DNA from: Mesorhizobium sp. M1D.F.Ca.ET.043.01.1.1
GTDB taxonomy: Bacteria; Pseudomonadota; Alphaproteobacteria; Rhizobiales; Rhizobiaceae
DNA length: 64,000 nucleotides
Assembly: GCF_003952385.1 (NCBI RefSeq)
Contig: NZ_CP034444.1
Span: 3,782,001-3,846,000, forward strand
Direction of reading: 5' to 3'
Under the pieces are notes generated by a model. The model made no database searches and was not told where the DNA came from. It saw nothing but the letters and a program-made list of their open reading frames with translations. Positions 20,352 through 54,332 of the stretch are shown here, piece by piece. The position numbers were made by a program, and so were the translations under genes. The number at the start of each line of letters is the position of its first letter. Position 1 is the stretch's first letter.

Positions 20352-22418
20352 ATGGAGAATCCGTTCGGCCCCAACAGGATCGAGTACGAAAGTCGCCCGA
20401 TACTGTGGTTCAGTCAGAAGTCGGCCTTGATTTCTGCCGCCGCCAAGCCGGTCTTCGTCGCAGGGACGAGAGGCAGCGGCAAGACCAGTATTCTTCGCTC
20501 GCTTTCCACAGTTCATATCCTCGAAGACAAAAGTCTCGCGGACCAAGTCGGCAAGCTCGGCTGGTATGGCGTCTTCTTCCAGCTCAATGAGACATTTTCG
20601 CCCCTAATCGACAACGCGGTTCTGAACCTCATTCCGGAGCGGATACGCTTCGACACGGCCGCCGTGATCCCGCGGCAATTCGTAATCTTCTCTCACTATC
20701 TGGAGCTGAAGATAGTCGAACGCCTGCTCGAGAGCATCAGCCAGCTCAGACGCGACAGCCACTTGAAATACCGGGCCTCTGAAGATAGGGACGTCGCCTT
20801 GGCACTGCATCGCGAAGTGCTGCACTTCATACCCCAACCTGCCCGTCTCGACTTCTTCAGCATAGATGAGCTGCGGGGTGGGATAACCCGGTACGTCGAC
20901 GAATGCTTCAACGCGTTCTTCTTTGCCGCCGATGAGGGAGCGACCGGCTTCAGAGCGACAGACCCTGGCGCGATCATTAACAAGGTCGCGACCGCGATCA
21001 CCCCACTTTTAAATGGCCCATCTTTCGCCGGTGACAGGGCGCCCTTCTTCAAGATCCTGATTGACGACTGTGAGGCACTGACACCGCTCCAACAGCAGTT
21101 CCTGAACACCTTGGTGAGGAAGACGCGCGGCAATGTGAAATGGGTCCTCGCCTACATCGGCGGCCTTTACGACACGATCCGGACGATCATACCCGGCCAG
21201 TCGCTCTCGAATGCTGACCGGGACGTCGAGAATCTTGATTCAGTCGATCCGAGGGAGTTCGCCACGCTGTGCGAGAACGTGTCGTCGCTTCGGCTCTACT
21301 ATGCGCTTCCTGACCATCTGCGGAGTGATCTCAAGCGCAACGATGCGCTCAGCGCGTTTTCGCTCAAAAACCGGCTGGGGCGGCTTTCCGTCAATGACAT
21401 CATCGAGCGGGTTATCATATCGGGTCATTCCGAGGGCAGAGAAGAGCTTGTGGCACTCGCTGATGCAGCACGTGAATTCCTCTCCGTGAATTTGAGGACG
21501 GCGGATCAGCAGCAATTCCTTCTTGATCGAAAAGCGCGCCCTTATGCCGAAGGGCTGGCGCTCGCGCTCATGAACCCGGAAATCAAGCGCCGGCCCATGA
21601 GCAAGGCGGATGCTTCAAATCTGAAGAGGTCGATCGCCCGGAAACAGGGATGGGCTTTTCTGAAAGCGTGCCAGATGCTGCGTCTGCATGACTACCCGTA
21701 CGTAGGGCACCAGATCATCACATCATTGAGCGACGTCTGTATACGCGATTTCCTTGATATAATGGGAGAGATCTTCCGCCGCAGTGTTCCGAGTTCCAGT
21801 GATCCACGAAAACTGGTGGAATTCATCAACTCGGATTTACAGATTCATCTCGAACAGCAGAGACAGGCTGTGAACGCCGCCTCTCAACGGAAGCTTGATG
21901 GACTTCAGGCGCTTTCACATCCGTACGAAGAAGAGAGCGTGCGCATGGTGCGGGCGTTGGGTTACCTGACCGCTCGCCTCCAGACAGAGTTTGCCGAAGA
22001 AAATGCTCTAGGAACGACAGAGAGAGGCATTTTCAGGGTTGATCTAAAGGAAATGCGCTCGCTGGTGAACCGACTGGAGCAACCCAGCGGAAAACTGGAC
22101 GAGGTCCTGCGTCGGGCGGAAAGGGATGGGTTTATCCGGGAGGTCTCCGCCGCCGGCAACTTTGAGGTGGACCGCGCCGACCCCGCATCGAAGGAGATGC
22201 TGATCAGATTGCATCGGCGATTTGCACCTTACTTCGGGTTCTCCTATCGCGGCCCGTACGAAATCAACACAATCCCTGCGGCGCAGATGGTCGACCTGCT
22301 TTTTACCAGGCATCGGCTCCCAGAAGACTGGGCCGACTCGGTGTTTAAGGAGCTCGTCGCGCGGCCCGCACTCAAGACCGAATTCCAGCACTCGCTTTTC
22401 GAGAGCGATCTCGAATGA
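20352..22418 (+). CDS. ORC-CDC6/STAND-like P-loop ATPase, second gene of a three-gene operon
   Basis: The 688-residue protein opens MENPFGPNRIEYESRP and has Walker A GTRGSGKT at 38-45 and a Walker B-type LIDDCEAL at about 233-240 followed by a sensor-like region VKWVLAYIG. The rest is helical with a probable winged-helix part near 570-650 (LDEVLRRAERDGFIREV). This fits the ORC-CDC6/STAND group of regulatory ATPases that often serve as the sensing or switching module in bacterial defence operons. It begins 2 bases after the metallophosphoesterase stop and overlaps the next gene by 4 bases. Function is inferred from architecture only. Confidence 0.75.
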   Translation: MENPFGPNRIEYESRPILWFSQKSALISAAAKPVFVAGTRGSGKTSILRSLSTVHILEDKSLADQVGKLGWYGVFFQLNETFSPLIDNAVLNLIPERIRFDTAAVIPRQFVIFSHYLELKIVERLLESISQLRRDSHLKYRASEDRDVALALHREVLHFIPQPARLDFFSIDELRGGITRYVDECFNAFFFAADEGATGFRATDPGAIINKVATAITPLLNGPSFAGDRAPFFKILIDDCEALTPLQQQFLNTLVRKTRGNVKWVLAYIGGLYDTIRTIIPGQSLSNADRDVENLDSVDPREFATLCENVSSLRLYYALPDHLRSDLKRNDALSAFSLKNRLGRLSVNDIIERVIISGHSEGREELVALADAAREFLSVNLRTADQQQFLLDRKARPYAEGLALALMNPEIKRRPMSKADASNLKRSIARKQGWAFLKACQMLRLHDYPYVGHQIITSLSDVCIRDFLDIMGEIFRRSVPSSSDPRKLVEFINSDLQIHLEQQRQAVNAASQRKLDGLQALSHPYEEESVRMVRALGYLTARLQTEFAEENALGTTERGIFRVDLKEMRSLVNRLEQPSGKLDEVLRRAERDGFIREVSAAGNFEVDRADPASKEMLIRLHRRFAPYFGFSYRGPYEINTIPAAQMVDLLFTRHRLPEDWADSVFKELVARPALKTEFQHSLFESDLE

Positions 22419-23470
22419 CCGCTTCAACTGTCGAGTATCGAGTCTTCGGCCATCTGGCCGTCACTGAGAAGGCGAGAGATGCAGGTACCTGCGAAACGAT
22501 GGAGGCAGATATCGCGATCGTCGCGCTTGGATGGGAAACGCGTTTCGCCGCGTTCGAAAACCATCTTGACCTGAAGGTCGGCAAAATCGTGGTTCTGGAC
22601 TTTGCTCTGAAGGAAGCGAACGTCCCAGCCGTCGAAGAAAACCGGCGAAAGCTCATCGCTATGGGTACCCGATGGGGCGTCGAAGTGACTGCGATCACCC
22701 TCGAGCCTTCCATCGAGTATCAGAAGAACATCAATCTCCTCGATCACCTGCTCACTCAGATGGCCGCTTCATGTGGCTCATACGAAGGAAGCCTGCGGAA
22801 GGTTTTCGTCGAGTGCTCGACGATGCCGCGAATCTACATCCAATGGCTGATTGCGGTGGCATTCAAGAAAATGTCGATTCAGTCTCTCGAATTCGGGTAC
22901 GCCGAAGGTATCTACGGGAACGCGATCGGCAAAGAGGATTTTTCCAGCGGCTTGGACCGATACGTCACCGTCCCTCATCTTCAAGGCAGCGGAGGAATGG
23001 GCGAAGAGAAAGTCCTGCTCGTGGGGATCGGAGGAGATGCCGACGTATTCTACGGATTGATCGATATCGTCAGTCCGGAACGGATCTCGCTCCTCGTCCC
23101 AAGAAGCGAGAAGAATGCGCATATCGATGCTTTGCTCGATCAACAGGTGGCCAAGGTACGTGAAACCCACCGGCTCGAAGATGGCGAAGTTCGCGACATC
23201 CAGGCTTTCGGGCTGATGGCCCACCTCGATGCTTTCGAGACGTATCTCGACGGGTTCGGCTCGCGTGCGGTGGTGAACGTTTTTGTCAGCGGCCCGAAGG
23301 TTCAGGCCATCGCTGCTGCCGTGCTCGCCTGCTCCGACAGCCGCGTCCATCTCAAGGCACGAATTCCCACCTCCTATGCCCATCGTGAAGTCTCAGCGAA
23401 TGGGCGGTATCATATCTATAGGCTGATTGACCTGACATCCCCTGCCTGCAGCCTTCCCGGGACGTTCTGA
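22415..23470 (+). CDS. Unrecognised two-lobed protein, third gene of the operon
   Basis: I do not recognise this 351-residue family. It appears to have two Rossmann-like halves: the first with ADIAIVALGWETRF (about 31-44), KIVVLDFAL (57-65) and VFVECSTMPRIY (130-141); the second with KVLLVGIGGDAD (199-210), ISLLVPRSEKNA (224-235) and VVNVFVSGPK late on. Alternating hydrophobic strands followed by Gly/Ser-rich turns suggest nucleotide or small-molecule binding, possibly CARF-like, but this is conjecture. No membrane segment is visible. ATGA overlap with the ATPase shows co-translation, so it is probably the sensor or effector of the operon. Confidence 0.7.
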   Translation: MTASTVEYRVFGHLAVTEKARDAGTCETMEADIAIVALGWETRFAAFENHLDLKVGKIVVLDFALKEANVPAVEENRRKLIAMGTRWGVEVTAITLEPSIEYQKNINLLDHLLTQMAASCGSYEGSLRKVFVECSTMPRIYIQWLIAVAFKKMSIQSLEFGYAEGIYGNAIGKEDFSSGLDRYVTVPHLQGSGGMGEEKVLLVGIGGDADVFYGLIDIVSPERISLLVPRSEKNAHIDALLDQQVAKVRETHRLEDGEVRDIQAFGLMAHLDAFETYLDGFGSRAVVNVFVSGPKVQAIAAAVLACSDSRVHLKARIPTSYAHREVSANGRYHIYRLIDLTSPACSLPGTF

Positions 23471-32294: not shown

Positions 32295-32518
32295 AAAGGC
32301 AACGGAAGATCTAGCATTTATGGGGGAAATGTTTTTTCGGAGTGCTTGACCCGCAGGAAGGGCAGGGCATGACTGCCTATCGCCCGACCCGGCCGGCCGC
32401 ACTCATGACCGGCTGGGCTCGGTTAATCCTGCATGCCGCGCCCATGAGGTTGCGCTCTGTCGGGAGTGCGTCGAGCACAACGACGAGATGTAGTTCACGA
32501 TCTTTGAAACGCGTGTCA
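32295..32518 (-). pseudogene. nodD relic 1 with large internal deletion
   Basis: On the minus strand the right half (32392-32518) reads LKDRELHLVVVLDALPTERN and INRAQPVMSAA, matching the NodD N-terminus, but the ATG has become ACG. At 32392 it jumps to text matching the far C-terminal part of the intact nodD (HSEKTFPP, stop, LDLPLPF; intact [15 protein letters not shown]). About 700 bases of nodD are thus missing. It lies divergently from the nodFE copy 1 nod box. Confidence 0.75.
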
Positions 32519-32520
32519 AC

Positions 32521-32569
32521 CATCCAAAGTGTGGATGCCTTTCATCGAAACAAACGATTTCATCAATGT
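32521..32569 (+). promoter_or_regulatory. nod box of nodFE copy 1
   Basis: CATCCAAAGTGTGGATG, a spacer, then CATCGAAACAAACGATTT match the two palindromic halves of the NodD-binding nod box. It points towards the nodA relic and nodF, with the nodD relic on its other side. Confidence 0.9.
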
Positions 32570-32619
32570 TCTGGAATCCTGCATGGGCAGAACAGAAACC
32601 GCCCGAAAGGAGATTTTTC

Positions 32620-32744
32620 ATGCGCTCTACCGGGCAGTGGAGTGCTGGGAAAGGGAGTTGCAACTGACCGGGTCCGACTTCTTCCGAGTCTATGGACAGA
32701 CTGGGAGACGCGCACGGTGTAGCGGCTCACATCGTCATACTGCA
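32620..32744 (+). pseudogene. nodA relic ahead of nodF copy 1
   Basis: A strong AAGGAG precedes ATGCGCTCTACC. The sequence then follows nodA in a shifted frame (CWERELQLTGSDFFRVYG, compare [20 protein letters not shown] in the intact gene), loses about 100 bases, and resumes at HGVAAHI. It is untranslatable as NodA but keeps the ribosome binding site. It shows that nodF-nodE once followed nodA directly. Confidence 0.85.
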
Positions 32745-32893
32745 CCTACGCCACACACCGGCCGGACCTGATCCGGCTTTATGAGCATTGGGCTTTGTCA
32801 GTTGCCCAAGCGTGATGGCTTTCGCGACGCGGCGCGCCTCAGGAACTGAGCCGCGTCCAGGTCGAAACGCGGGAAAGAAAGACAGGAAACAGA

Positions 32894-33175
32894 ATGGCCG
32901 ATCAATTCGCAACGGACGTCATTGCCCTGATCAAGAAACGCGCCGAGTCGGAGAGCGGTGAGGGAATGCCTGCGTCATTCGTCGGCGAGATAACAATCGC
33001 CACGGAACTGGACGCGCTCGGGTTTGATTCGCTGGGTTTGGCGGACGTCCTCTGGGATGTGGAGCAGGCCTACGGCATCAAGATCGACATGAACACGGCC
33101 GATGCCTGGTCCAATCTCAAGAATGTCGGCGACGTCGTGGAAGCCGTCCGCGGCTTGCTTGCGAAGGAGGCTTGA
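32894..33175 (+). CDS. nodF: Acyl carrier protein NodF (copy 1)
   Basis: NodF is the dedicated acyl carrier on which the special polyunsaturated chain of the Nod factor is built. The 93-residue protein has the phosphopantetheine site in [11 protein letters not shown] (serine near residue 44). The ATG follows ACAGGAAACAG. nodE begins at the next base after its stop, so the two form a unit under the nod box at 32521. The copy at 48686 differs by one residue (Ala26 here, Thr there). Confidence 0.95.
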
Positions 33176-34384
33176 ATGGACAGGCGCGTCGTTATCACCG
33201 GAGTGGGCGGCCTGTGCGGACTGGGCACCGACGCCGCCTCTATGTGGAAAGAGATGCGCGAAGGCCGCTCCGCCATCGGCCCGATCGCCAATTCCGAGCT
33301 TCATGACCTGGAGGGCATGACCGGCGCTGAGATCAAGGCGCTGCCCCAGCACGACATCAACCGGGGGCATCTCATCTCCATGGACCGCTTCAGCTTGCTC
33401 GCCGTGCTTGCAGCGCGCGAAGCCATGCGGCAGGCCGGACTTTCCTGGGACGAGGGGAATGCCCATCGCTTCGGCGCGACAGTGGGCGTCGGATTTACCG
33501 GTTCATACGCAACAGAACAAACTTACCGCTCACTGCTTTTGGGTAGCGCAATCCGTGCTGAACTCTTCACTGGAGTAAAGGTGATGCCCAGCGCCGCTTC
33601 CGTCCATCTTAGCTTGAGCCTCGGCTTGCGCGGGCCGGTCTTCGGGGTGACCTCCGCATGTGCCTCGGCCAACCATGCGATCGCCTCGGCGGTGGACCAG
33701 ATCAAGCTGGGCCGGGCCGACGTAATGGTTTCCGGAGGCAGCGACGCACCCTTCGCATGGGGCGTGCTGAAAGCATGGGAAGCAATGCGCGTGCTTTCAC
33801 CCGATACCTGCCGGCCCTTCTCCGCCGATAGGAAGGGCCTGGTGCTGGGCGAGGGTGCGGGCATGGCCGTGCTGGAAAGCTACGAGCATGCCACGAGGCG
33901 TGGTGCCACAATTCTTGCCGAGATCGCCGGCGTCGGCCTTTCCGCCGATGCCTTCCACATTGCCGCGCCATCTGTCGAGGGGCCAGCGTCGGCGATGCGC
34001 GCCTGCCTTGCCGATGCCGGGCTGAATGCCGAGGACGTCGACTACCTCAACGCGCACGGCACCGGTACCAAAAGCAATGATCAGACTGAAACGGCGGCGA
34101 TCAAGCGTGTGTTTGGAAACCACGCTTATTTGATGTCCATCTCTTCCACCAAGTCCACGCACGCGCATTGCCTCGGCGCAGCGAGCGCGCTTGAAATGAT
34201 CGCCTGCGTGATGGCAATCCAAGAGGACGTCGTGCCGCCGACCGCCAACTATCGCGAGCCAGATCCCGCTTGCGACCTCGACATCACACCCAATGTGCCG
34301 CGCGAGCGCAAGGTGCGCGTCGCCATGAGCAACGCCTTCGCCATGGGCGGTACGAACGCAGTTCTGGCATTCAGGCAGGTGTAG
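33176..34384 (+). CDS. nodE: Beta-ketoacyl synthase NodE (copy 1)
   Basis: NodE is a FabF-type condensing enzyme that with NodF decides the length and unsaturation of the Nod-factor acyl chain, a host-range trait. The 402-residue protein has the active-site cysteine in TSACASA (about 161), the His motifs [11 protein letters not shown] and [11 protein letters not shown], and the C-terminal [12 protein letters not shown]. It differs from copy 2 mainly in residues 64-70 (GHLISMD), W91 and 107-145 (FTGSYATEQ... to VHL), while nearly all the rest is identical. The changed patch coincides with the region that in FabF lines the acyl pocket at the dimer interface, so the two copies may prefer different chains. 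Confidence 0.95.
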
Positions 34385-34435
34385 AAGCCATGCAAGACGC
34401 CTCATTTGAGGTCACCTGTCGTATCTAGCTGCTTG

Positions 34436-34621: not shown

Positions 34622-34760
34622 AGTACAGGGGGAGCTGTGTGGCCCCCTCTTTCTCGGCCTCGACGATGTGCGAAGGAGCCTGTGCGGCGAACGGGCCGAC
34701 GCCCCAGGCTCAGAACCTGGGCGAACCTAACTCCCGCCAAAGGACAGCCCAGAGCTGGAT
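34622..34760. repeat. Degenerate downstream repeat, copy A
   Basis: Text such as tctcggcctcgacgatgtg, gcctgtgcggcgaa and ccaaaggacagcc is shared with 50237-50372, with many point differences. Its coding status is unclear; I see no domain. It extends the nodFE duplication beyond the near-identical core and looks older or less homogenised. Confidence 0.75.
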
Positions 34761-34830: not shown

Positions 34831-34935
34831 TACGGAGATAATCGCGCGGCCCGGCAACGGCCGCGCGTGCCGCGGGCGTGAGCTTTGCGCTTCGTCAGAA
34901 GTGCCTCGAGCGTGACGACGATAATTGACCAGCCA
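34831..34935 (-). pseudogene. nodD relic 3, beside the nodA nod box
   Basis: The sequence aligns to the 5' part of the intact nodD: acggagataatcgcgcggcc matches the intact gcggaaataatcgcgcagtc, and after a deletion of about 30 bases the match resumes through the segment coding for [13 protein letters not shown] (here LIIVVTLEALLTKRK). It has no usable start. Its position, divergent from nodA across a nod box, is the ancestral place of nodD. Confidence 0.7.
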
Positions 34936-34956
34936 TATGGAACGCATTCGCCCAGT

Positions 34957-35006
34957 TATCCAAAGCGTGGATACCTTTCATCTAAACAAAGGATTTTACC
35001 GTTTTT
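34957..35006 (+). promoter_or_regulatory. nod box of nodABC
   Basis: TATCCAAAGCGTGGATA, then CATCTAAACAAAGGATTTTACC, the two nod-box halves with normal spacing. It precedes nodA by about 230 bases, a leader that holds no other gene. Confidence 0.9.
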
Positions 35007-35237
35007 GCTGCAGGTCCCATAGAGGCGCTTCAAGTTGGAAAGATAGGTAGTTCCCATGGTTGCGTTGGATCCGAGGAGCATCATCTGGTGTGCGGGGCGC
35101 ACAAAGTCAGTCGCATCTGCATTACGGCTTGGTCTTTCGGCGGTCTCCACAAGTTACGCCCCGTTGGTGCGATGCCAATTATTTAACCAATGCTTGGACA
35201 TTTATCTCAACCAGACAGCTCCAAGGTGAGGTCTTCC

Positions 35238-35828
35238 ATGCGCCCGAATGTCGATTGGAAGTTGTGCTGGGAAAATGAGCTGCAACTGGCCGACCATGTC
35301 GAACTCTCCGACTTTTTTCGAAAGACCTATGGACGGACTGGCGCCTTCAACGCGGAGCCATTCGAAGGCGGCCGCAGTTGGGCCGGCGCGAGGCCGGAAT
35401 TCCGCGCAATCGGCTACGACGCGCATGGGGTAGCGGCTCACATCGGCATGCTGCGGCGCTTCATCAAAGTTGGCGAGGTCGACTTGATCGTCGCTGAATT
35501 GGGCCTGTACGCGGTTCGTCCGGATCTTGAAGGGCTCGGAATCGGTTTTTCGATGCGCGTGGCGTACCCAGTGCTCCATCAGTTGGGTGTTCCATTCGCT
35601 TTCGGCACGGTTCGGCACGCGCTGCGAAACCATGTCGAAAGATTCTGCAGAGCCGGCCTCGCGAACATTGTGTCGGGCGTTCGCGTACGATCGACCCGTC
35701 CAGATGTGCATCCCGACCTGCCGCCCACGCGCCTGGAAGACGTACTCGTGTTGGTTTCGCCGATCGGACGCTCGATGGACGAGTGGCCGTCCGGTACCCT
35801 GATCGACCGGAACGGTCCGGAACTATGA
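35238..35828 (+). CDS. nodA: N-acyltransferase NodA
   Basis: NodA transfers the fatty acyl chain to the free amino group of the deacetylated chitin oligomer. The 196-residue protein reads [50 protein letters not shown] and ends [13 protein letters not shown] (LIDRNGPEL), the family's conserved end. MRPNVDW at 35238 is chosen by homology; the frame is open further upstream without support. nodB begins inside its stop (ATGA). Confidence 0.96.
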
Positions 35829-36484
35829 AGCCTCTGGACTACATATGCGAAGGGCAGAGTGACAATGCCGATGGCACTGCAGAGCGCAGCGTCTATCTGA
35901 CGTTTGACGATGGTCCCAATTCATTTTTCACACCGCAGATACTCAATGTGCTGGCGCAACATCAGGTGACGGCGACCTTCTTCGTTGTTGGGGCCTACGC
36001 GGCCGACGAGCCGGAACTCGTTCGCCGAATTATTACAGACGGGCACGGTATAGCCAACCACACGATGACTCATCCGGACCTGGCCAAATGCGGGTCCGTC
36101 GAAGTCGACTGCCAGATAGTTGAGGCAAACAGAGTCATAGGGATGGCTTGCCCGCAGGCCATGGTTCGGTACTTTCGTGCACCGTATGGCATCTGGACCG
36201 AAGAAGTAATCGCTGCATCAGCGGGTGCGGCATTGGCGCCCGTCCATTGGTCCATTGATCCACGCGACTGGTCTCGCCCCGGCGTTGACGCCATCGTCGA
36301 CAGAGTGCTCGCCGATATCCGGCCGGGCGCAATCGTGCTGTTGCACGACGGGTGCGCTCCCGACGAATTGCAACCAGGCAATCAAGCCAGTCTGCGCGAC
36401 CAGACGGTGACAGCGTTGTCACGCCTAATTCCAGAATTGCACGGCCGCGGATTTGTAATCCGATCACTTCCTCAACACCCCTGA
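35825..36484 (+). CDS. nodB: Chitooligosaccharide deacetylase NodB
   Basis: NodB removes the acetyl group from the non-reducing end of the chitin oligomer so that NodA can acylate it. The 219-residue protein starts [10 protein letters not shown] and carries the polysaccharide deacetylase motifs TFDDGPN (catalytic base and metal Asp), NHTMTHPD (metal His pair), RAPYG and IVLLHDG. The start at 35825 overlaps the nodA stop by 4 bases; an in-frame extension upstream is not conserved. Confidence 0.96.
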
Positions 36485-36499
36485 ACAAACAGAGATCCT

Positions 36500-37825
36500 A
36501 TGGACCTTCTCACCACAGCCAGTACTGTTGCCGTTTCGTCTTATGCGGTGCTCTCGACTGTTTACAGAGGCATGCAAGCGGTCTACTCCCAACCGGAAAA
36601 TGTTACGCCGCCGTCGGAAAGCTTGTTCGGATCCGACCGTTGGCCGAGCGTGGATGTCATTATCCCCTGCTACAATGAGGACCCGCGCACACTCGCGGCG
36701 TGTTTAGCTTCCATTGCAAATCAAGATTACGCCGGAACATTTCAGGTCTATCTGGTTGACGACGGTTCTGGAAATCGTAATGCCGTCATCCCGGTACATC
36801 ACGCCTACGAGGGCGACCCGAGATTCAATTTCATTCTGCTCCGCGAGAATGTTGGCAAACGCAAGGCGCAGATCGCCGCCATCCGCCGCTCATCTGGAGA
36901 TTTCGTGCTCAGCGTCGACTCTGACACGACACTTGCGTCCGACGTCATCACAAAGCTTGCAGTAAAAATGCGGGATTCCATGGTCGGAGCGGCCATGGGC
37001 CAGCTGACGGCATACAACCGCAGCGACACTTGGTTGACCCGATTGATCGATATGGAATACTGGCTGGCTTGCAATGAGGAGCGCGCGGCGCAAGGTCGCT
37101 TTGGTGCGGTCATGTGCTGCTGCGGCCCATGTGCAATGTACCGCCGGTCTTGTCTCCTTTCTCTGCTGGATCAATACGAGACGCAGCTGTTCAGGGGGAA
37201 ACCAAGCGACTTCGGTGAAGACCGTCATCTTACGATCCTCATGCTGAAAGCAGGCTTTCGAACCGAGTACGTTCCAGGTGCCGTCGCGGCGACAGTCGTT
37301 CCGGACAAGATGGGACCTTATTTGCGCCAACAACTCCGCTGGGCACGAAGCACCTTCCGGGACACGATGCTTGCGCGAGGTCTACTGCGTGGCCTGGATC
37401 GCTATCTAACTTTGGATGTGATGGGAGAGAATCTCGGCCCATTGTTGCTCGGCATCGCGGTAGTAACGGCGCTCGGTGAGCTACTATTTTCACATACAGT
37501 AAATTGGTGGACGGTGCTGGCTATTGTCACGATGACCATAATCAGATCTACGGTGTTATCTTTCCGCACTCGGCAGCTTCGATTCATCGGCTATTCAATG
37601 CACGCGTTAATCAGGATATTCCTGTTGATCCCCTTGAAGGCTTACGCCCTGTGTACATTGAGCAATAGCGATTGGCTGTCGCGTAAAAGTGTTCCCCTGC
37701 CCAACAGGAGCACAAAGGAAATCACAAGCGCGATGCCGCTTGCCGGAGCAAATGCTGCGGGCAATTCTGGAATTGCGGAGTCACTTCATACTGCAGATCT
37801 TTCGCTCACAGCTGGTGAAGTCTGA
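36500..37825 (+). CDS. nodC: N-acetylglucosaminyltransferase NodC
   Basis: NodC is the membrane chitin-oligosaccharide synthase that builds the Nod-factor backbone. The 441-residue protein has an N-terminal membrane segment, the GT2 motifs VDDGSGN, SVDSD (DxD), GEDRHLT and QQLRWARS (QxxRW), and several C-terminal membrane segments ending at LCTLSNSDWLSR. Its tail is about 15 residues longer than in Sinorhizobium. It starts 15 bases after nodB and belongs to the nod-box operon. Confidence 0.96.
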   Translation: MDLLTTASTVAVSSYAVLSTVYRGMQAVYSQPENVTPPSESLFGSDRWPSVDVIIPCYNEDPRTLAACLASIANQDYAGTFQVYLVDDGSGNRNAVIPVHHAYEGDPRFNFILLRENVGKRKAQIAAIRRSSGDFVLSVDSDTTLASDVITKLAVKMRDSMVGAAMGQLTAYNRSDTWLTRLIDMEYWLACNEERAAQGRFGAVMCCCGPCAMYRRSCLLSLLDQYETQLFRGKPSDFGEDRHLTILMLKAGFRTEYVPGAVAATVVPDKMGPYLRQQLRWARSTFRDTMLARGLLRGLDRYLTLDVMGENLGPLLLGIAVVTALGELLFSHTVNWWTVLAIVTMTIIRSTVLSFRTRQLRFIGYSMHALIRIFLLIPLKAYALCTLSNSDWLSRKSVPLPNRSTKEITSAMPLAGANAAGNSGIAESLHTADLSLTAGEV

Positions 37826-39792: not shown

Positions 39793-40081
39793 CGCTTACC
39801 TACGCCCATCAACGAGAAGGAGGTCCGCAATGCCGGATTGCAAACTGCCCCCAGCGGCCCGGAGGCATGCGTGTGCCAGGAATCGCGAGTGGTACAACAA
39901 CGCCGAAGCCGGGCGCCACCCAGCCGCTGCAGGCACGCGCCCATCTTCGCGACCACACCTCGGAGTACAGGCTGGGTGGTGAGGCGCGCGGACCCACCCG
40001 GAGCGTTCAAGCGATAGCAGCCAAGCTTCTTGTGCGCGTCCCCAGACCGTCGCGGCCATTATTTAGTTGGATACACATGCA
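39793..40081. other. nodJ-nodH interval
   Basis: A frame starting at ATG 39831 has AAGGAGG ahead of it and encodes a basic, proline-rich peptide of about 50 residues (MPDCKLPPAARRHACARNRE) without known family. It may be the stub of a lost nod gene. No nod box or other promoter is evident, so nodH is probably read through from nodJ. Confidence 0.4.
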
Positions 40082-40843
40082 ATGACCCACAACGAACCAA
40101 CTCCTGAGCCTTTTGTGATCCTTGCTATGCCAAGGACCGGAACACACTATTTAGAAGAATTGCTAAACGAGCATCCGACCGTTCTGAGTAACGGTGAGTT
40201 GCTAAACGAATATGATCCCAATTGGCCCAGCACGGATCGCCTGCTAGGCACGGATCGCGAGCTTCTTGAGCTTGCCTATGTGCGCTGCCCTATGCGCGAC
40301 TACAAGAATGTGACGCATCTTGGCTGCAAGATCAATGAACCTCAGTTTCGCGAGCGTCCAGCATTCTTTGCGGAATTAGCTCGTTGGCCAGCACTCAAGG
40401 TCATCCTCGTTGTTCGCCGAAACGTATTGGAATCGCTCCGATCCTTTGTGCAGGCCAGGGAAAGCGGTCAGTGGCTGAAGTTCAGCTCGGACAACGATAC
40501 CGCTCGGCCACCGAGCGTCAGGTTGTCAATCGCCGACTGTGAGGCTTATTTCAAAGCCGCCGACGATTTTCACGCTCGCGTTATGGACTCCTTCACGTCG
40601 ACCAACCTGCTTGTAATGGAATACGAGAGCCTACTTCACGAACCTGCCCAATGCTTGGGAGCGGTTTGGGATTTCCTGGGCGTTCCAGCGCTTGAGCCAT
40701 CAGATAACGCCATCTTGCAGCGCCAGGAAACGCGACCGCTTGATCAAACGGTGGAGAACTTTGACGAGTTGCGGATTCACTTCGCACGCGGACCTTATTC
40801 AAGATTTTTTGACCTCGGAGATTCAATGCGCTCCTACGCTTAA
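40082..40843 (+). CDS. nodH: Nod-factor sulfotransferase NodH
   Basis: NodH moves sulfate from PAPS to the reducing end of the Nod factor. The 253-residue protein begins MTHNEPTPEPFVILAMPRTG, where AMPRTGTHYLEELLNEHP is the 5'-phosphosulfate loop, and continues LKVILVVRRNVLESLRSFVQ (3'-phosphate binding) and RRQETRPLDQTVENFDELR-like text. It follows Sinorhizobium NodH closely from memory. An in-frame TTG at 40067 is less likely as start. nodPQ, which make PAPS, are not in the window. Confidence 0.94.
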   Translation: MTHNEPTPEPFVILAMPRTGTHYLEELLNEHPTVLSNGELLNEYDPNWPSTDRLLGTDRELLELAYVRCPMRDYKNVTHLGCKINEPQFRERPAFFAELARWPALKVILVVRRNVLESLRSFVQARESGQWLKFSSDNDTARPPSVRLSIADCEAYFKAADDFHARVMDSFTSTNLLVMEYESLLHEPAQCLGAVWDFLGVPALEPSDNAILQRQETRPLDQTVENFDELRIHFARGPYSRFFDLGDSMRSYA

Positions 40844-44857: not shown

Positions 44858-45775
44858 TCACAGCGGGGCAGCCATCCGAGATGCCTCCTGTATCATTATC
44901 TCCCGCATCCAGATGCTTGCCGGATCGCTATTGTGGAGGGCCGGCCATTGGAGGGTCTCGGTGAATGTGGGAAATGGCAGCGGAAGTTCGATAACCCGCA
45001 GGGGGAACGTTTTTTCGAAATGCCTGACCAGCCGTAAGGGCATGGTCGCTATACGAGCTGTGCCGGACACCATAGGTGGAATCATGCTGAAGCCCTGCAC
45101 GGCGACCTCGACACGTCTCTTAAGGCCATGCTCAAGCAAAAACCATTCCTCGATAGACGGCTTCATCGTACGCCCGAACCTGACCGCGACGTGCCTCATC
45201 GACATGTATCTCTCGAATGTAAGCTGCTGTGGCAGCTGCTTGTTTGTGGGACAGCCTACGCACACGAGCTTCTCGTCAAACAGCGCAATGCTTGAATGCA
45301 CACTCGACGTGAACATATCCGGTAGAATTAGAAAATCGACGTCACCGCGCCGGAGAAGCTCATCGGGGCTATCGTCGACAGGCAGCAGTTCGAAGCTGAC
45401 GGCGGGGGCTTCCCGTGAAATACGCTCCACAAGCTTTTCGAAAAACACGAGCGTGACGAAATCGGAAAGAATGATCCTGAAGAGGCGATCGGCTCGAGCT
45501 GGGTCAAACGGATCCGAAGAAATAATCGAGCACTGGATGTGCTGGAGAGCGTCGCGAACTGCGGGGGCAAATGCTGCCGCACGCGGGGTTAGAAATCGTT
45601 CGCGACCTCTTATCGTAAACAGTTCATCGCGGAAATAATCGCGCAGTCGGGCGACGGCCGCACTCATGGCGGGCTGACTCAGGTTGATCCTGCGTGCCGC
45701 CGCCGAGAGATTACGCTCCGTCAGGAGTGCGTCGAGCACAACGAGGAGATTTAGATCAAGTCCTTTGAAACGCAT
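44858..45775 (-). CDS. nodD: LysR-type nodulation regulator NodD
   Basis: NodD senses plant flavonoids and activates nod-box promoters. The 305-residue protein begins [20 protein letters not shown], with the LysR helix-turn-helix [20 protein letters not shown], and keeps NodD-specific blocks such as [10 protein letters not shown] and the ligand domain to [11 protein letters not shown]. The start at 45775 is set by homology. A nod box lies 10 bases upstream, pointing away from nodD. This is the only intact nodD here; three decayed copies sit at the other nod boxes. Confidence 0.95.
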
Positions 45776-45784
45776 GTCATCAGC

Positions 45785-45832
45785 CATCCATGGGATGGAT
45801 GCCTTTAACCGAAACAAACGACTTTAACAATT
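45785..45832 (+). promoter_or_regulatory. nod box divergent from nodD
   Basis: ATCCATGGGATGGATG, then AACCGAAACAAACGACTTTAAC, resembles the nod box but with two changed core positions. It points into 45832-46476, where no known nod gene remains. Confidence 0.8.
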
Positions 45833-47920: not shown

Positions 47921-48256
47921 AAAATACGAGCGTGACGAAATCGGGAAGAATGATCCTGAAGCGGCGATTCGGTAGAGCCGGGTCAAACTATCCGACGAAA
48001 TAAACGAGCACTGGATGGGCGGGAGAGCGTCGCGAACTGGAGGGCAAGAGCTCCCGGACGCAGCGTTAAGTTTGAATACCTCCGCGGACATGGTCGCGAG
48101 CTTATCGCGCAAATAATCGAGCAGCCGAGCGCCGGCCGCACTCATGACCGGCTGGGCTCGGTTAATCCTGCATGCCGCGCCCATGAGGTTGCGCTCTGTC
48201 GGGAGTGCGTCGAGCACAACGACGAGATGTAGTTCACGATCTTTGAAACGCGTGGT
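47921..48256 (-). pseudogene. nodD relic 2 (N-terminal third)
   Basis: The minus frame reads FKDRELHLVVVLDALPTERN and INRAQPVMSAAGARLLDYLR, then degrades with frameshifts but can be followed to the segment matching [10 protein letters not shown] of the intact nodD. The start codon is ACG. The remainder of the gene is gone, replaced by the IS110 remnant. Confidence 0.85.
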
Positions 48257-48260
48257 CAAC

Positions 48261-48310
48261 TATCCAAAGTGTGGATGCCTTTCATCGAAACAAACGATTT
48301 CATCAATGTT
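48261..48310 (+). promoter_or_regulatory. nod box of nodFE copy 2
   Basis: TATCCAAAGTGTGGATG, then CATCGAAACAAACGATTT: identical to the copy 1 nod box apart from the first base. Confidence 0.9.
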
Positions 48311-48411
48311 CTGGAATCCTGCATGGGCAGAAGCACCTGACGCACACCGATGCCCCCACTGCCTCATGGCGTGGCGAGCGTCTTAAGAAACCGCCCGAAA
48401 GGAGATTTTTC

Positions 48412-48536
48412 ATGCGCTCTACCGGGCAGTGGAGTGCTGGGAAAGGGAGTTGCAACTGACCGGGTCCGACTTCTTCCGAGCCTATGGACAGACTGGGAGA
48501 CGCGCACGGTGTAGCGGCTCACATCGTCATACTGCA
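48412..48536 (+). pseudogene. nodA relic ahead of nodF copy 2
   Basis: Same broken nodA remnant as at 32620, with one base change (gagcctatgg for gagtctatgg). The AAGGAG ribosome binding site is retained. Confidence 0.85.
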
Positions 48537-48685
48537 CCTACGCCACACACCGGCCGGACCTGATCCGGCTTTATGAGCATTGGGCTTTGTCAGTTGCCCA
48601 AGCGTGATGGCTTTCGCGACGCGGCGCGCCTCAGGAACTGAGCCGCGTCCAGGTCGAAACGCGGGAAAGAAAGACAGGAAACAGA

Positions 48686-48967
48686 ATGGCCGATCAATTC
48701 GCAACGGACGTCATTGCCCTGATCAAGAAACGCGCCGAGTCGGAGAGCGGTGAGGGAATGCCTACGTCATTCGTCGGCGAGATAACAATCGCCACGGAAC
48801 TGGACGCGCTCGGGTTTGATTCGCTGGGTTTGGCGGACGTCCTCTGGGATGTGGAGCAGGCCTACGGCATCAAGATCGACATGAACACGGCCGATGCCTG
48901 GTCCAATCTCAAGAATGTCGGCGACGTCGTGGAAGCCGTCCGCGGCTTGCTTGCGAAGGAGGCTTGA
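48686..48967 (+). CDS. nodF: Acyl carrier protein NodF (copy 2)
   Basis: The 93-residue acyl carrier is identical to copy 1 except for Thr at position 26 (Ala there). It has the phosphopantetheine site GFDSLGL and feeds NodE copy 2, whose ATG follows directly after its stop. It has its own nod box at 48261. Confidence 0.95.
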
Positions 48968-50176
48968 ATGGACAGGCGCGTCGTTATCACCGGAGTGGGC
49001 GGCCTGTGCGGACTGGGCACCGACGCCGCCTCTATGTGGAAAGAGATGCGCGAAGGCCGCTCCGCCATCGGCCCGATCGCCAATTCCGAGCTTCATGACC
49101 TGGAGGGCATGACCGGCGCTGAGATCAAGGCGCTGCCCCAGCACGACATCAATCGCAAGCAGTTCGTCTCCATGGCCCGCTTCAGCTTGCTCGCCGTGCT
49201 TGCAGCGCGCGAAGCCATGCGGCAGGCCGGACTTTCCTGCGACGAGGGGAATGCCCATCGCTTCGGCGCGACAGTGGGCGTCGGCGGCTTGGGCTGGGAT
49301 GTGATGGAGGAAACTTACCGGGCCCTCCTTTTGGACGGCGCGAGGCGAGTTGGCATCCTCGCTGTACCCAAAACGATGCCAAGCGCCGCCGCCGGCCAGG
49401 TGAGCTTGAGCCTCGGCTTGCGCGGGCCGGTCTTCGGGGTGACCTCCGCATGTGCCTCGGCCAACCATGCGATCGCCTCGGCGGTGGACCAGATCAAGCT
49501 GGGCCGGGCCGACGTAATGGTTTCCGGAGGCAGCGACGCACCCTTCGCATGGGGCGTGCTGAAAGCATGGGAAGCAATGCGCGTGCTTTCACCCGATACC
49601 TGCCGGCCCTTCTCCGCCGATAGGAAGGGCCTGGTGCTGGGCGAGGGTGCGGGCATGGCCGTGCTGGAAAGCTACGAGCATGCCACGAGGCGTGGTGCCA
49701 CAATTCTTGCCGAGATCGCCGGCGTCGGCCTTTCCGCCGATGCCTTCCACATTGCCGCGCCATCTGTCGAGGGGCCAGCGTCGGCGATGCGCGCCTGCCT
49801 TGCCGATGCCGGGCTGAATGCCGAGGACGTCGACTACCTCAACGCGCACGGCACCGGTACCAAAAGCAATGATCAGACTGAAACGGCGGCGATCAAGCGT
49901 GTGTTTGGAAACCACGCTTATTCGATGTCCATCTCTTCCACCAAGTCCACGCACGCGCATTGCCTCGGCGCAGCGAGCGCGCTTGAAATGATCGCCTGCG
50001 TGATGGCAATCCAAGAGGACGTCGTGCCGCCGACCGCCAACTATCGCGAGCCAGATCCCGCTTGCGACCTCGACATCACACCCAATGTGCCGCGCGAGCG
50101 CAAGGTGCGCGTCGCCATGAGCAACGCCTTCGCCATGGGCGGTACGAACGCAGTTCTGGCATTCAGGCAGGTGTAG
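48968..50176 (+). CDS. nodE: Beta-ketoacyl synthase NodE (copy 2)
   Basis: The 402-residue condensing enzyme retains the catalytic Cys-His-His set (TSACASA, AHGTGTK, THAHCLG). Relative to copy 1 it has KQFVSMA for GHLISMD at 64-70, Cys for Trp at 91, [20 protein letters not shown] with following residues for 107-145, and Ser for Leu about residue 320. The rest is identical. The localised replacement suggests recombination with another nodE allele followed or preceded by homogenisation of the flanks. Confidence 0.95.
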
Positions 50177-50236
50177 AAGCCATGCAAGACGCCTCATTTG
50201 AGGTCACCTGTCGTATCTAGCTGCTTGAGGGGCGGG

Positions 50237-50372
50237 GCATTGTGATACAGGGAGAGCTGTGGGGTCCCTCCTTCTCGGCCTCGACGATGTGGAAGGAGCC
50301 TGTGCGGCGAAACGGGCTAGACGCCCCCAGGCCCAGAACTTGGGCGAAACCAACTCCCACCAAAGGACAGCC
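50237..50372. repeat. Degenerate downstream repeat, copy B
   Basis: Counterpart of 34622-34760. Shared blocks include tctcggcctcgacgatgtg and ccaaaggacagcc. Confidence 0.75.
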
Positions 50373-50923: not shown

Positions 50924-51982
50924 ATGGGCTGCCAAATGGAACGTAAAAAGATCAGCAAGGAGATGCTTGGCGATAGTCAGGCGCTGCGCAAGCTGCGTGA
51001 GCACCTTGTCAAGGTGGCCAAGGCGAAGACTACGGTCCTGTTGCGAGGTGAATCCGGAACCGGTAAGGAGCTGGTTGCCAAAGCCATTCACGAGCTCTCG
51101 CCTCGCGCCAAGCAGCCCTTCATCAAGGTCAATTGCGCGGCGCTCACCGAGACGCTTCTGGAATCTGACTTGTTCGGTCATGAGAAGGGTGCCTTCACCG
51201 ACGCGAGCAGTTTGCGCAAGGGGCGCTTTGAGGCTGCCGACAAAGGCACATTGTTTCTGGACGAGATTGGCGAAATATCAGGTTCGTTCCAGGCTAAGCT
51301 GCTGCGTGTCCTGCAGGAGCAGGAGTTTGAGCGCGTCGGCAGCAACCACACCATTAAAGTTGATGTTCGCGTGATTGCCGCAACGAACAGGGACTTGGAA
51401 ACGGCAGTTCAACGCAAGGAGTTCCGGCAAGACCTCTATTATCGCATCAACGTCGTCACTTTACGCGTGCCGGCATTGCGCGAAAGGCGAGGTGATATTC
51501 CGCTCTTGGCCGCTCAGTTTCTCAAGAATTTCAATACTGAGAATGATCACACGCTGACCTTCGCTCCCGAAGCGATTGAGGTGCTAATGAACTGCGAATT
51601 TCCAGGCAACATCCGAGAGCTCGAAAACTGCGTTCAACGGACGGCAGTTCTGGCGACGGGTCCATCAATCCTCAGAACTGACTTTGCCTGTTACGCGGAT
51701 CAGTGCTTGGCCGCGGCGCTGTGGAAGAACGGACCGCCGACGTCAGAGAAGTCGACTACGATCCAGCCTTCCGCCGCCTGTGCCGCCCCGCCCGTCGGCG
51801 ACGGGCAAGCGCCGATAGGCCCTGCCACGAGTCGTGGTAGGGTGCCCGATGCCGATACGGTCATTGCTGCCATGGAAAAGTGTGGCTGGGTGCAGGCAAA
51901 GGCGGCGCGCCTGCTCGGTTTGACCCCGCGCCAGATCGGCTACGTGCTGAGAAAACGCGGTATCGAGATCAAGCGTCTCTGA
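50924..51982 (+). CDS. nifA: NifA-type sigma-54 activator lacking its GAF domain
   Basis: NifA activates nif and fix promoters with RpoN. This 352-residue form begins within the usual interdomain linker (MERKKISKEMLGDSQALRKL), so the roughly 200-residue N-terminal GAF sensor is absent. The AAA+ domain is complete: Walker A GESGTGKE at 42-49, Walker B TLFLDEIGEI, RINVVTLRVPALRERRGD. The sigma-54 contact loop reads GAFTDA (89-94) rather than GAFTGA. The oxygen-sensing cysteines 224, 236, 256 and 261 keep the C-x11-C-x19-C-x4-C spacing, and the C-terminal helix-turn-helix is intact. ATG 50924 has GGAG close by. No GAF-coding remnant is seen upstream. Confidence 0.9.
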   Translation: MGCQMERKKISKEMLGDSQALRKLREHLVKVAKAKTTVLLRGESGTGKELVAKAIHELSPRAKQPFIKVNCAALTETLLESDLFGHEKGAFTDASSLRKGRFEAADKGTLFLDEIGEISGSFQAKLLRVLQEQEFERVGSNHTIKVDVRVIAATNRDLETAVQRKEFRQDLYYRINVVTLRVPALRERRGDIPLLAAQFLKNFNTENDHTLTFAPEAIEVLMNCEFPGNIRELENCVQRTAVLATGPSILRTDFACYADQCLAAALWKNGPPTSEKSTTIQPSAACAAPPVGDGQAPIGPATSRGRVPDADTVIAAMEKCGWVQAKAARLLGLTPRQIGYVLRKRGIEIKRL

Positions 51983-52564: not shown

Positions 52565-53131
52565 ATGATGCGTAGCCAAAAAGAAAAGATGCTCGCAGGC
52601 GAGTTTTACAATGCGGCGGATCCGGAGATCCAAGCTGACCTGTTGGCCACCGGGGCTTGGCTCAAGCGGTACAATGATACGCTGGGGCAGACCACGGGGC
52701 ATTGGCATGAGCTTTTGTCCGAGCGGCTGGGAGAGGTTGGGCGCGGAACGGTCATCCGTCCGCCCTTTTTTTGCGACTACGGATTCAATATCCGCATTGG
52801 AGCCAATGCCTACATCAACTTCAACTGCGTTATTCTTGACGTGGTAGAGGTCAAAATCGGGCAAGGAACGGCAATTGGGCCTGCTGTGCAGATTTATACC
52901 GCCGATCATCCACATGATGCCGAGCAGCGGCAGGCCGGCCTGCAGGTCGGGCGTCCTGTTCACATTGGCAGCCGTGTCTGGATCGGCGGTGGAGCAATCA
53001 TTCTGCCTGGCGTCACGATTGGTGATAATGCAGTGGTAGGCGCTGGCTGCGTGGTCACACGAGATGTTCCCGCCGGGGCAAAGGTAGTGGGAATTCCTGC
53101 TCGCGTGGCCGACCCACATAAACAGGCATAA
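52565..53131 (+). CDS. nodL: Nod-factor O-acetyltransferase NodL
   Basis: NodL acetylates the 6-O position of the non-reducing sugar of the Nod factor. The 188-residue protein has the maltose/NodL acetyltransferase N-terminus (KEKMLAGEFYNAADPEIQAD) followed by left-handed beta-helix hexapeptide repeats with FFCDYGFNIRIGANAYINFN, IYTADHPHD (catalytic His) and IGGGAIILPGVTIGDNAVVG. The start follows GGGAGACT. No convincing nod box lies upstream. Other maltose-type acetyltransferases are similar, but the setting supports NodL. Confidence 0.88.
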   Translation: MMRSQKEKMLAGEFYNAADPEIQADLLATGAWLKRYNDTLGQTTGHWHELLSERLGEVGRGTVIRPPFFCDYGFNIRIGANAYINFNCVILDVVEVKIGQGTAIGPAVQIYTADHPHDAEQRQAGLQVGRPVHIGSRVWIGGGAIILPGVTIGDNAVVGAGCVVTRDVPAGAKVVGIPARVADPHKQA

Positions 53132-53438: not shown

Positions 53439-54332
53439 TTAATCCTGGCTAGCATCGACCCCGACGAGGCGAGCCGCGGCGTTGCGGATCGGCATGTCGA
53501 TGACCGTGATTGCGCCTTCGGCAAGGAAACGACGTTCGTTTCTGGTCAGCGTAGCCGAATCGATCACCGCAAAATGTGGGCCAGTGGAGCGCTTCATCAG
53601 CTGTCTGGCATATGTGCGCAGCATCTGATCGTTGAAGCGGCAGCCCACGAAGAAAAAACCCCGGTTGACGCGCCGTTGCTTCACCGCGTCCGGGATCGGC
53701 GTCTGGATATCAATTTCGGTTAGGACTTCGACGTAATCGGAATCAGCCACGAGGAAGTTTGCCGCCGGCCTGACGCTGCCGTGCGGCGCATAGAGCACCG
53801 TCCTAGCCACTTGTTCGGCCTCGAGTTCTGTTCCTGACAAATCGTAAGTTCTCGTCCAGATGTTACCGATTCCGGTCGCGCGCGTCGTTCCTTGTATCTC
53901 GACAACGTCTGTTTGGCCGGCCTCTGCAAGGGCTGCTCGCATGGCGCCATCGTACCAGCTGTCGATGATGACAGACAGTTGAAGGGTTGCGAGCCAGGCG
54001 TGAAGAACGGTCGGCTCGGCGGGGGCTGCGAATATCTCCGCCATCCACGCTTGGAGAGTCCGACGATGTCGGCGCTGCTCGATAAACTGCGCGACCGACC
54101 ACATATTGGTGCGAATCCTGGAAGGGGCAGGCGCCCGCTTGTTGAGGGCCGCGGCGACATCTTCAGGGGTGCAAGGTACAGGTGATTCCGGTGGGTTAAG
54201 CTGCAGAAGACCAGGACCGAGATAGGGGATCACTCGATCGGCCTTGAGAGCGCCGTTCAGCAGGTCAATCAGTTTTTTGGCAAAACTGCCCCGGACGACG
54301 ACGAGATGGTCCCAGCTCAGCATCGTGTTCAT
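53439..54332 (-). CDS. SIR2-like domain protein at the end of the nif operon
   Basis: The 297-residue protein has the layout of bacterial SIR2_2 domains: RVIPYLGPGLL (NAD-binding loop), LHAWLATLQLSVIIDSWYDG, VLYAPHGSV (a possible catalytic His) and FFFVGCRFNDQMLR. Genes of this kind are often found after nifZ-nifT in rhizobia, where their role is not known to me. ATG 54332 has GAGAGG 9 bases upstream. It follows nifT by 34 bases, so it is probably co-transcribed from the nifB promoter. Confidence 0.75.
   Translation of the reverse strand: MNTMLSWDHLVVVRGSFAKKLIDLLNGALKADRVIPYLGPGLLQLNPPESPVPCTPEDVAAALNKRAPAPSRIRTNMWSVAQFIEQRRHRRTLQAWMAEIFAAPAEPTVLHAWLATLQLSVIIDSWYDGAMRAALAEAGQTDVVEIQGTTRATGIGNIWTRTYDLSGTELEAEQVARTVLYAPHGSVRPAANFLVADSDYVEVLTEIDIQTPIPDAVKQRRVNRGFFFVGCRFNDQMLRTYARQLMKRSTGPHFAVIDSATLTRNERRFLAEGAITVIDMPIRNAAARLVGVDASQD

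Follow-up and report, generated by a model that had tools for sequence, protein, structure and literature searches.

The locus described here raises the question of why a single strain should carry two NodE proteins that are almost identical along most of their length and sharply different in two short patches. It lies in a stretch of 64,000 nucleotides, C1:3782001-3846000, from Mesorhizobium sp. M1D.F.Ca.ET.043.01.1.1, the whole of which was analysed and is referred to as the window. The symbiosis island of this Mesorhizobium carries two nodFE units in the same orientation, 15,792 bases apart (Table 1). The strain is termed chickpea-type, since 'Ca' in the strain codes of many close Mesorhizobium relatives is presumed to stand for Cicer arietinum. 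The patches are designated P1 and P2, their copy 1 versions class A and their copy 2 versions class B.

Table 1. Features of the two nodFE units and their surroundings (positions in the window; copy 2 is in register with copy 1 at an offset of 15,792).
Feature	Positions	Strand	Remarks
nodFE unit 1	32392..34435	+	94.5% match to 48131-50227, with an indel; upstream of nodABC
Nod-box-like promoter, unit 1	32522..32567	+	46 bases identical in both units
nodF copy 1, acyl carrier protein	32894..33175	+	ACP-family matches all below cut-off
nodE copy 1, class A patch (Phe107)	33176..34384	+	402 aa
Patch P1 copy 1, codons 62-70	33359..33385	+	8/27 bases differ; aligns to FabF contacts K65/R68/K69
Between patches, codons 71-105	33386..33490 (copy 2: 49178-49282)	+	1/105 differs; homogenised
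Patch P2 copy 1, codons 106-145	33491..33610	+	49/120 bases differ; aligns to FabF gate I108 and contacts 127-132
nodA, nodB, nodC	35190..37825	+	downstream of copy 1; all three above NCBIfam cut-off
nodFE unit 2	48131..50227	+	upstream of nifA
Nod-box-like promoter, unit 2	48262..48307	+	same 46 bases as unit 1
nodF copy 2	48686..48967	+	offset 15792; A27T is the sole nodF change
nodE copy 2, class B patch (Gly107)	48968..50176	+	402 aa
Patch P1 copy 2	49151..49177	+	in-register partner of 33359..33385
Patch P2 copy 2	49283..49402	+	in-register partner of 33491..33610
nifA	50924..51982	+	downstream of copy 2; TIGR01817, 552 bits against a cut-off of 529

The near-identical core of the two units is 1,842 bases long (32594-34435). 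Near-identity extends past nodE, across nodF and, beyond an indel, the nod-box-like promoter, while the adjoining downstream sequences (34624-34749 against 50246-50372) are only 88% identical; this points to a duplication that predates the sameness of its core. Both promoters (putative NodD sites) were called with a nod-box consensus that we assume to apply, and a 37-base nod-box core pattern was found to precede both units in 7/7 other single-contig genomes scanned. Remnants resembling the nodD region (45655-45831) were also observed before the nodFE units (32394-32567 and 48170-48300) and before nodA (34865-34998). The open reading frame (ORF) at 40067-40843, which we take to be NodH, had no match in NCBIfam, and its DNA is 75.6% identical to an S. 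numidicum gene annotated 'sulfotransferase'; that at 52565-53131, presumably NodL, scored below the cut-offs of its best NCBIfam families. Elsewhere in the window, an ORC-CDC6-like ATPase (PF24389, E = 9.6e-78) in the region 20352-23470 overlaps the start of a 351-amino-acid ORF which has no Pfam match, and a SIR2_2-domain protein is encoded on the reverse strand (53439-54332) between the nodL-like gene and a radical-SAM ORF which we assume to be nifB-like.

NodE is the beta-ketoacyl-ACP synthase of nodulation. Both copies scored above the Pfam gathering scores for the beta-ketoacyl synthase domains PF00109 and PF02801, and residues C162, H294 and H331, which align to C163, H303 and H340 of FabF, were present in both copies across the 10 genomes aligned. 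Each nodE gene forms an operon with nodF behind a nod-box-like promoter in the nod cluster, and both proteins scored below the cut-off of the FabF equivalog TIGR03150 (414.2 and 434.6 against 493.75 bits). A third NodE-like synthase, 71% identical to copy 1, was observed on the chromosome of the same strain (G000:C1:3129318-3130514, L003); matches of about 71-74% were found in many other Mesorhizobium genomes, among the matches listed.

With the copies in register, 58 nucleotide differences were counted from 33361 to 33610, against three (at 32689, 32972 and 34131) across the rest of the core, and the only difference in the stretch between P1 and P2 is at 33448 (W91C). The first-pass annotation had described abrupt borders at the DNA level and proteins that are the same except at residues 64-70, 91 and 107-145. 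Both descriptions proved correct (5/7 residues change in 64-70 and 23/39 in 107-145), save that L319S (34131) was absent from its list. In total, 30 of the 402 residues differ, and the patches, with 49 residues, account for 28 of these. Silent and replacement changes are intermixed within the patches, as diverged homologous sequence would show; by the NG86 method, P1 and P2 together had a dN of 0.43 and a dS of about 1.07, with a flank dS of 0.0, and flank dS in the other 12 nodE pairs was 0.42-0.86 (the larger values being rough because of saturation). The split between the copy 1 and copy 2 patches is a deep one.

A total of 146 Mesorhizobium genomes, that of the window (G000) included, were searched for the pair. 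Among the matches listed, at least 19 genomes had two nodE copies with at least 91% identity to copy 1 and some 15-16 kb apart, and six further genomes had one copy; stretches of 18 genomes were examined beside the window. Class A was at position 1 and class B at position 2 in all eight single-contig genomes with both copies (G000, G068, G075, G077, G047, G099, G074 and G076). The same arrangement was observed in drafts G114 and G125, whose paralogue counts are as in G099. Both nodE frames were open, with intact catalytic residues, in the 10 genomes aligned, eight of which are single-contig.

Nine other drafts (loci L119, L120, L121, L126 and L129-L133) showed one patch class twice, four of them with class A, three with class B and two with a class A P1 joined to a class B P2. 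A run of N or a contig end was found at most 60 bases from the repeat unit in 9/9 of these, compared to 0/2 of the drafts with both classes, and they look like collapsed assemblies of the repeat. As all nine break at the repeat, they were not accepted as genuine conversions, although the breaks do not disprove that reading. Drafts of this kind are a trap for surveys of nodE diversity, in which one of the two versions may be hidden. Two further drafts may be natural copy-1-only strains. In M. wenxiniae (G145, L161:15997-17299), copy 2 is class B at 56/58 sites but is frameshifted, carries a tandem duplication of 94 bases and reaches its first stop at codon 333, and in the metagenome-assembled genome (MAG) G089 (L139) about 205 bases of unit 2 are left, with no nodFE at position 2. 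The earlier claim that both types are kept in one strain is borne out by the eight single-contig genomes and not by these two drafts.

Five haplotypes (G000, G047, G099, G074 and G076) were compared at both positions; the other three single-contig genomes share the paralogue counts of G000. Fixed differences between position 1 and position 2 were found at 54 of 147 ungapped patch sites and at 0 of 1693 sites outside (Fisher test, P = 1.6e-64, a value that is descriptive only since neighbouring sites are not independent), and none of the 105 sites of codons 71-105, between the patches, was fixed. Six sites (nodE coordinates -473, -111, -33, 279, 522 and 897) vary among strains and agree in both copies of every strain, site 279 being located between the two patches; further variants outside the patches are common to both copies in some of the five haplotypes. 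Copy 1 of G076 carries variants of its own copy 2 (54, 442, 786 and 1113), which copy 1 of G074 does not have. Homogenisation is incomplete in G074, whose copies have 33 differences outside the patches (12 upstream, 3 in nodF, and 5, 2 and 11 in the three nodE flank segments). Outside the patches the copies group by strain and inside them by position, a firm pattern of concerted evolution, and there is strong support for gene conversion having made the two genes alike outside P1 and P2. Gene conversion, which had been proposed at first pass, is thus well supported for this pair, as the force that homogenised what lies outside the patches rather than as a demonstrated source of the patch.

Trees were built from 48 of 86 nodE sequences (one of 87 was dropped due to an internal stop), the patch trees resting on 147 bases. 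In the patch tree, copy 1 grouped with R. ruizarguesonis (pea type), S. medicae, R. sullae, M. ciceri biserrulae and M. metallidurans, together with one copy each from M. amorphae, M. caraganae and M. temperatum; support for this class A list, which was picked after the patch tree had been viewed, was 95/89.7. Copy 2 was placed outside class A, next to an Astragalus Mesorhizobium with weak support (56). The flank tree united the chickpea-type copies in one clade (100), within which they were mixed by strain. Approximately unbiased (AU) tests rejected both copies as one clade on the patch data (p-AU = 0.0025) and, on the flank data, a copy-1 clade (P = 0.00034), a copy-2 clade (P = 0.00069) and copy 1 with class A (P = 9.7e-7). 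The grouping of all chickpea-type copies with class A gave P = 0.24 on the flank data, so that the shared NodE body may or may not stem from class A.

The comparison with other rhizobial NodE that the first-pass annotation had proposed for finding donors was carried out on the 86 nodE sequences, which come from loci of 80 of 207 relatives, so that unsampled donors are possible. No near-identical donor of codons 106-145 was present among them; the best identities outside the chickpea type were 72% for copy 1 and 78% for copy 2, and the two copies are 59% identical to each other in this segment. In 72,556 plasmid records there was no closer match to the patch DNA among the best 25 of 156 matching records per search.

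The NodE copies were aligned with E. coli FabF; in the region concerned the alignment needs a single gap, of one residue. E. coli FabF (KAS II) is of the same fold family, has the same Cys-His-His residues and aligns at the gate and docking positions; it differs from NodE at gate residues F202 and F400, which are L198 and M390 in both copies. By this alignment, the FabF gate residue Ile108 corresponds to NodE residue 107, which is Phe in copy 1 and Gly in copy 2. Nine of the 12 carrier-protein contacts of FabF listed in the text available from PMC7138838 would fall in the patches, and seven of them differ between the copies (residues 64, 67, 126, 128, 129, 130 and 131; hypergeometric P = 3.9e-6 over the whole protein and 0.007 within codons 62-145). 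The patch had earlier been placed near the acyl pocket; the alignment agrees as far as the gate is concerned, and the patches appear to cover carrier-protein contacts as well. An AlphaFold model of copy 1, made from 26 sequences, had a mean pLDDT of 34.3 and was set aside. Diversity was also assessed in 37 NodE proteins (collapsed at 98% from 52 sequences, neither chickpea-type nor chromosomal), in which mean pairwise difference was 0.38 in P2 and 0.35 in P1, compared to 0.21 between the patches, 0.22 before and 0.15 after them; P2 was the most variable 40-residue window of 362.

Residue 107 is Phe in two pea-type NodE proteins and in M. huakuii 7653R, Leu in S. meliloti 1021, and Gly in two clover-type proteins, N. 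galegae HAMBI 1141, an Onobrychis strain and an Oxytropis strain. Clover strains make C20 chains, and M. huakuii makes C18:4. The patch is not the only determinant of the acyl chain, because differences between pea-type and S. meliloti NodE are no denser in the patches (6/49) than outside (45/353; P = 1.0), though the acyl chains of the two differ; NodA must accept the chain as well. In the portions of the sources available, the Nod factor of a pea strain is given as C18:4 (PMC6479807) and that of N. galegae HAMBI 1174 as C20:3 (PMC4085339), each being a different strain from the one whose NodE was compared. R. tropici CIAT 899 has nodEF, and its Nod factors are described, in the part of the source available, as being without alpha,beta-unsaturated chains (PMC9048898).

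The explanation that we favour, and consider probable, is that two acyl-specificity modules are kept apart by selection on one near-identical NodE body. Two old NodE classes would have joined one symbiosis island, bringing separate nodF genes and nod boxes with them. The gate residue is Phe in class A, like that of pea-type NodE, and Gly in class B, like that of clover-type, Galega and Oxytropis NodE. Repeated conversion between the units would then have erased nearly all differences within a strain from the promoter, nodF and most of nodE, and codons 62-70 and 106-145 would have stayed distinct as one module, comprising the carrier-protein docking surface and the acyl-pocket gate. Selection most likely removes conversions that merge the patches, because the two enzymes most likely make different Nod-factor acyl chains; this is the best reading of where the patches lie and of their persistence. 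Two fatty-chain specificities, as suggested at first pass, are strongly predicted on sequence grounds, and our guess would be polyunsaturated chains that reach C18 at most with Phe107 and C20 at most with Gly107.

The same pattern might arise in the absence of selection if recombination homogenised the units wherever homology allowed and the patches were too divergent for conversion tracts. Strong divergence can by itself stop such tracts, P2 differs at 41% and P1 at 30% of bases, and the patch edges look partly eroded (copy 2 of G000 has Asn62 and Phe66, compared to Asp62 and Leu66 in other class B haplotypes). However, P1 is just 27 bases long, with eight mismatches and homogenised sequence on either side. 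That the surviving divergence coincides with docking and gate positions and with the most variable window of the family also speaks against a simple block, but only in part, as a block would keep the most-diverged regions. In a tract model that ignores heterology, the chance of a conversion covering site 279 and sparing both patches ranged from 2.4% (mean tract of 300 bases) to 39% (mean of 50). This course of events was considered unlikely, but it is a serious rival to selection. The proposal of the first-pass annotation, a recent duplication after which a foreign patch was imported into one copy by gene conversion (allele replacement), fits the sharp borders and the mosaic gene. It is also consistent with the flank tree, which separates copy 1 from class A, so that copy 1 holds class A sequence in its patches alone. 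Yet a single imported tract would have included the 105 homogenised bases that separate P1 from P2, the variants common to both copies within strains imply later conversion in any case, and the 88% continuation just beyond the repeat suggests an old duplication; with no close donor among the nodE sequences or the best-matching plasmid records, an import of this kind seems rather improbable.

It is more doubtful still that one copy is idle or decaying and that the Nod factor is the same whichever patch is present. The disrupted copy 2 of the M. wenxiniae draft and its loss from MAG G089 are what such decay might produce, but the open frames and intact catalytic residues of the genomes aligned, and the same nod-box-like promoter before both units, argue against it. 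Drafts clearly mishandle this repeat; an assembly chimera in the window itself was nevertheless ruled out to near certainty, as the window lies within a single 7.13-Mb contig and its arrangement is shown by seven further single-contig assemblies too.

If selection does keep the two modules apart, the pair would be a natural domain swap in which chain choice is pinned to docking and gate; chimera work has reportedly narrowed this choice to the NodE central domain. A near-isogenic pair within one strain makes the chain-choosing residues testable, and lets the contest between selection and gene conversion be studied in a signalling gene that a bacterium carries on a mobile island. A bolder proposal, towards which we do not quite lean, is that chickpea mesorhizobia are two-signal strains, in which 49-residue modules kept distinct despite conversion yield a C18-type and a C20-type family of Nod factors, with residue 107 as the main switch.

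Among known systems, one of the closest is that of Rhizobium leguminosarum biovars viciae and trifolii, in which the central domain of NodE is said to set acyl hydrophobicity and host range (work attributed to Bloemberg et al., 1995). As in the window, the gate residue is F107 in one of these biovars and G107 in the other, and residues differ more often within the patches (21/49) than elsewhere (72/353; P = 0.001). In R. leguminosarum, however, the two types occur in separate strains and differ along the whole gene, whereas in the window both occur in one strain on a near-identical body. M. amorphae, M. caraganae and M. temperatum (from Astragalus and Caragana) resemble the window in having two NodE proteins in the nod cluster, with Phe and Gly at residue 107 (Val and Gly in M. 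temperatum). Unlike the window's pair, theirs are not homogenised but diverged along the whole gene, with an identity of 82-87% across the three flank segments and of 74-75% for P2, and their nodFE pairs (L134, L135 and L144) are 2.4-4.3 kb apart rather than 15,792 bases. The Val107 copy of M. temperatum is the closer to nodABC, as is the class A copy in the window; judging by gene order, in stretches which end before nodABC, the Phe107 copy would likewise be the closer in M. amorphae and M. caraganae. Multiple nodE copies are mentioned for R. yanglingense in the part of the source available (PMC5702008). Concerted evolution with a protected segment was not reported for any nodulation gene in the titles and abstract openings searched. 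Such gene pairs occur in animals and among bacterial surface genes, and the NodE pair is like them in that the paralogues are alike within a genome except for one functional segment.
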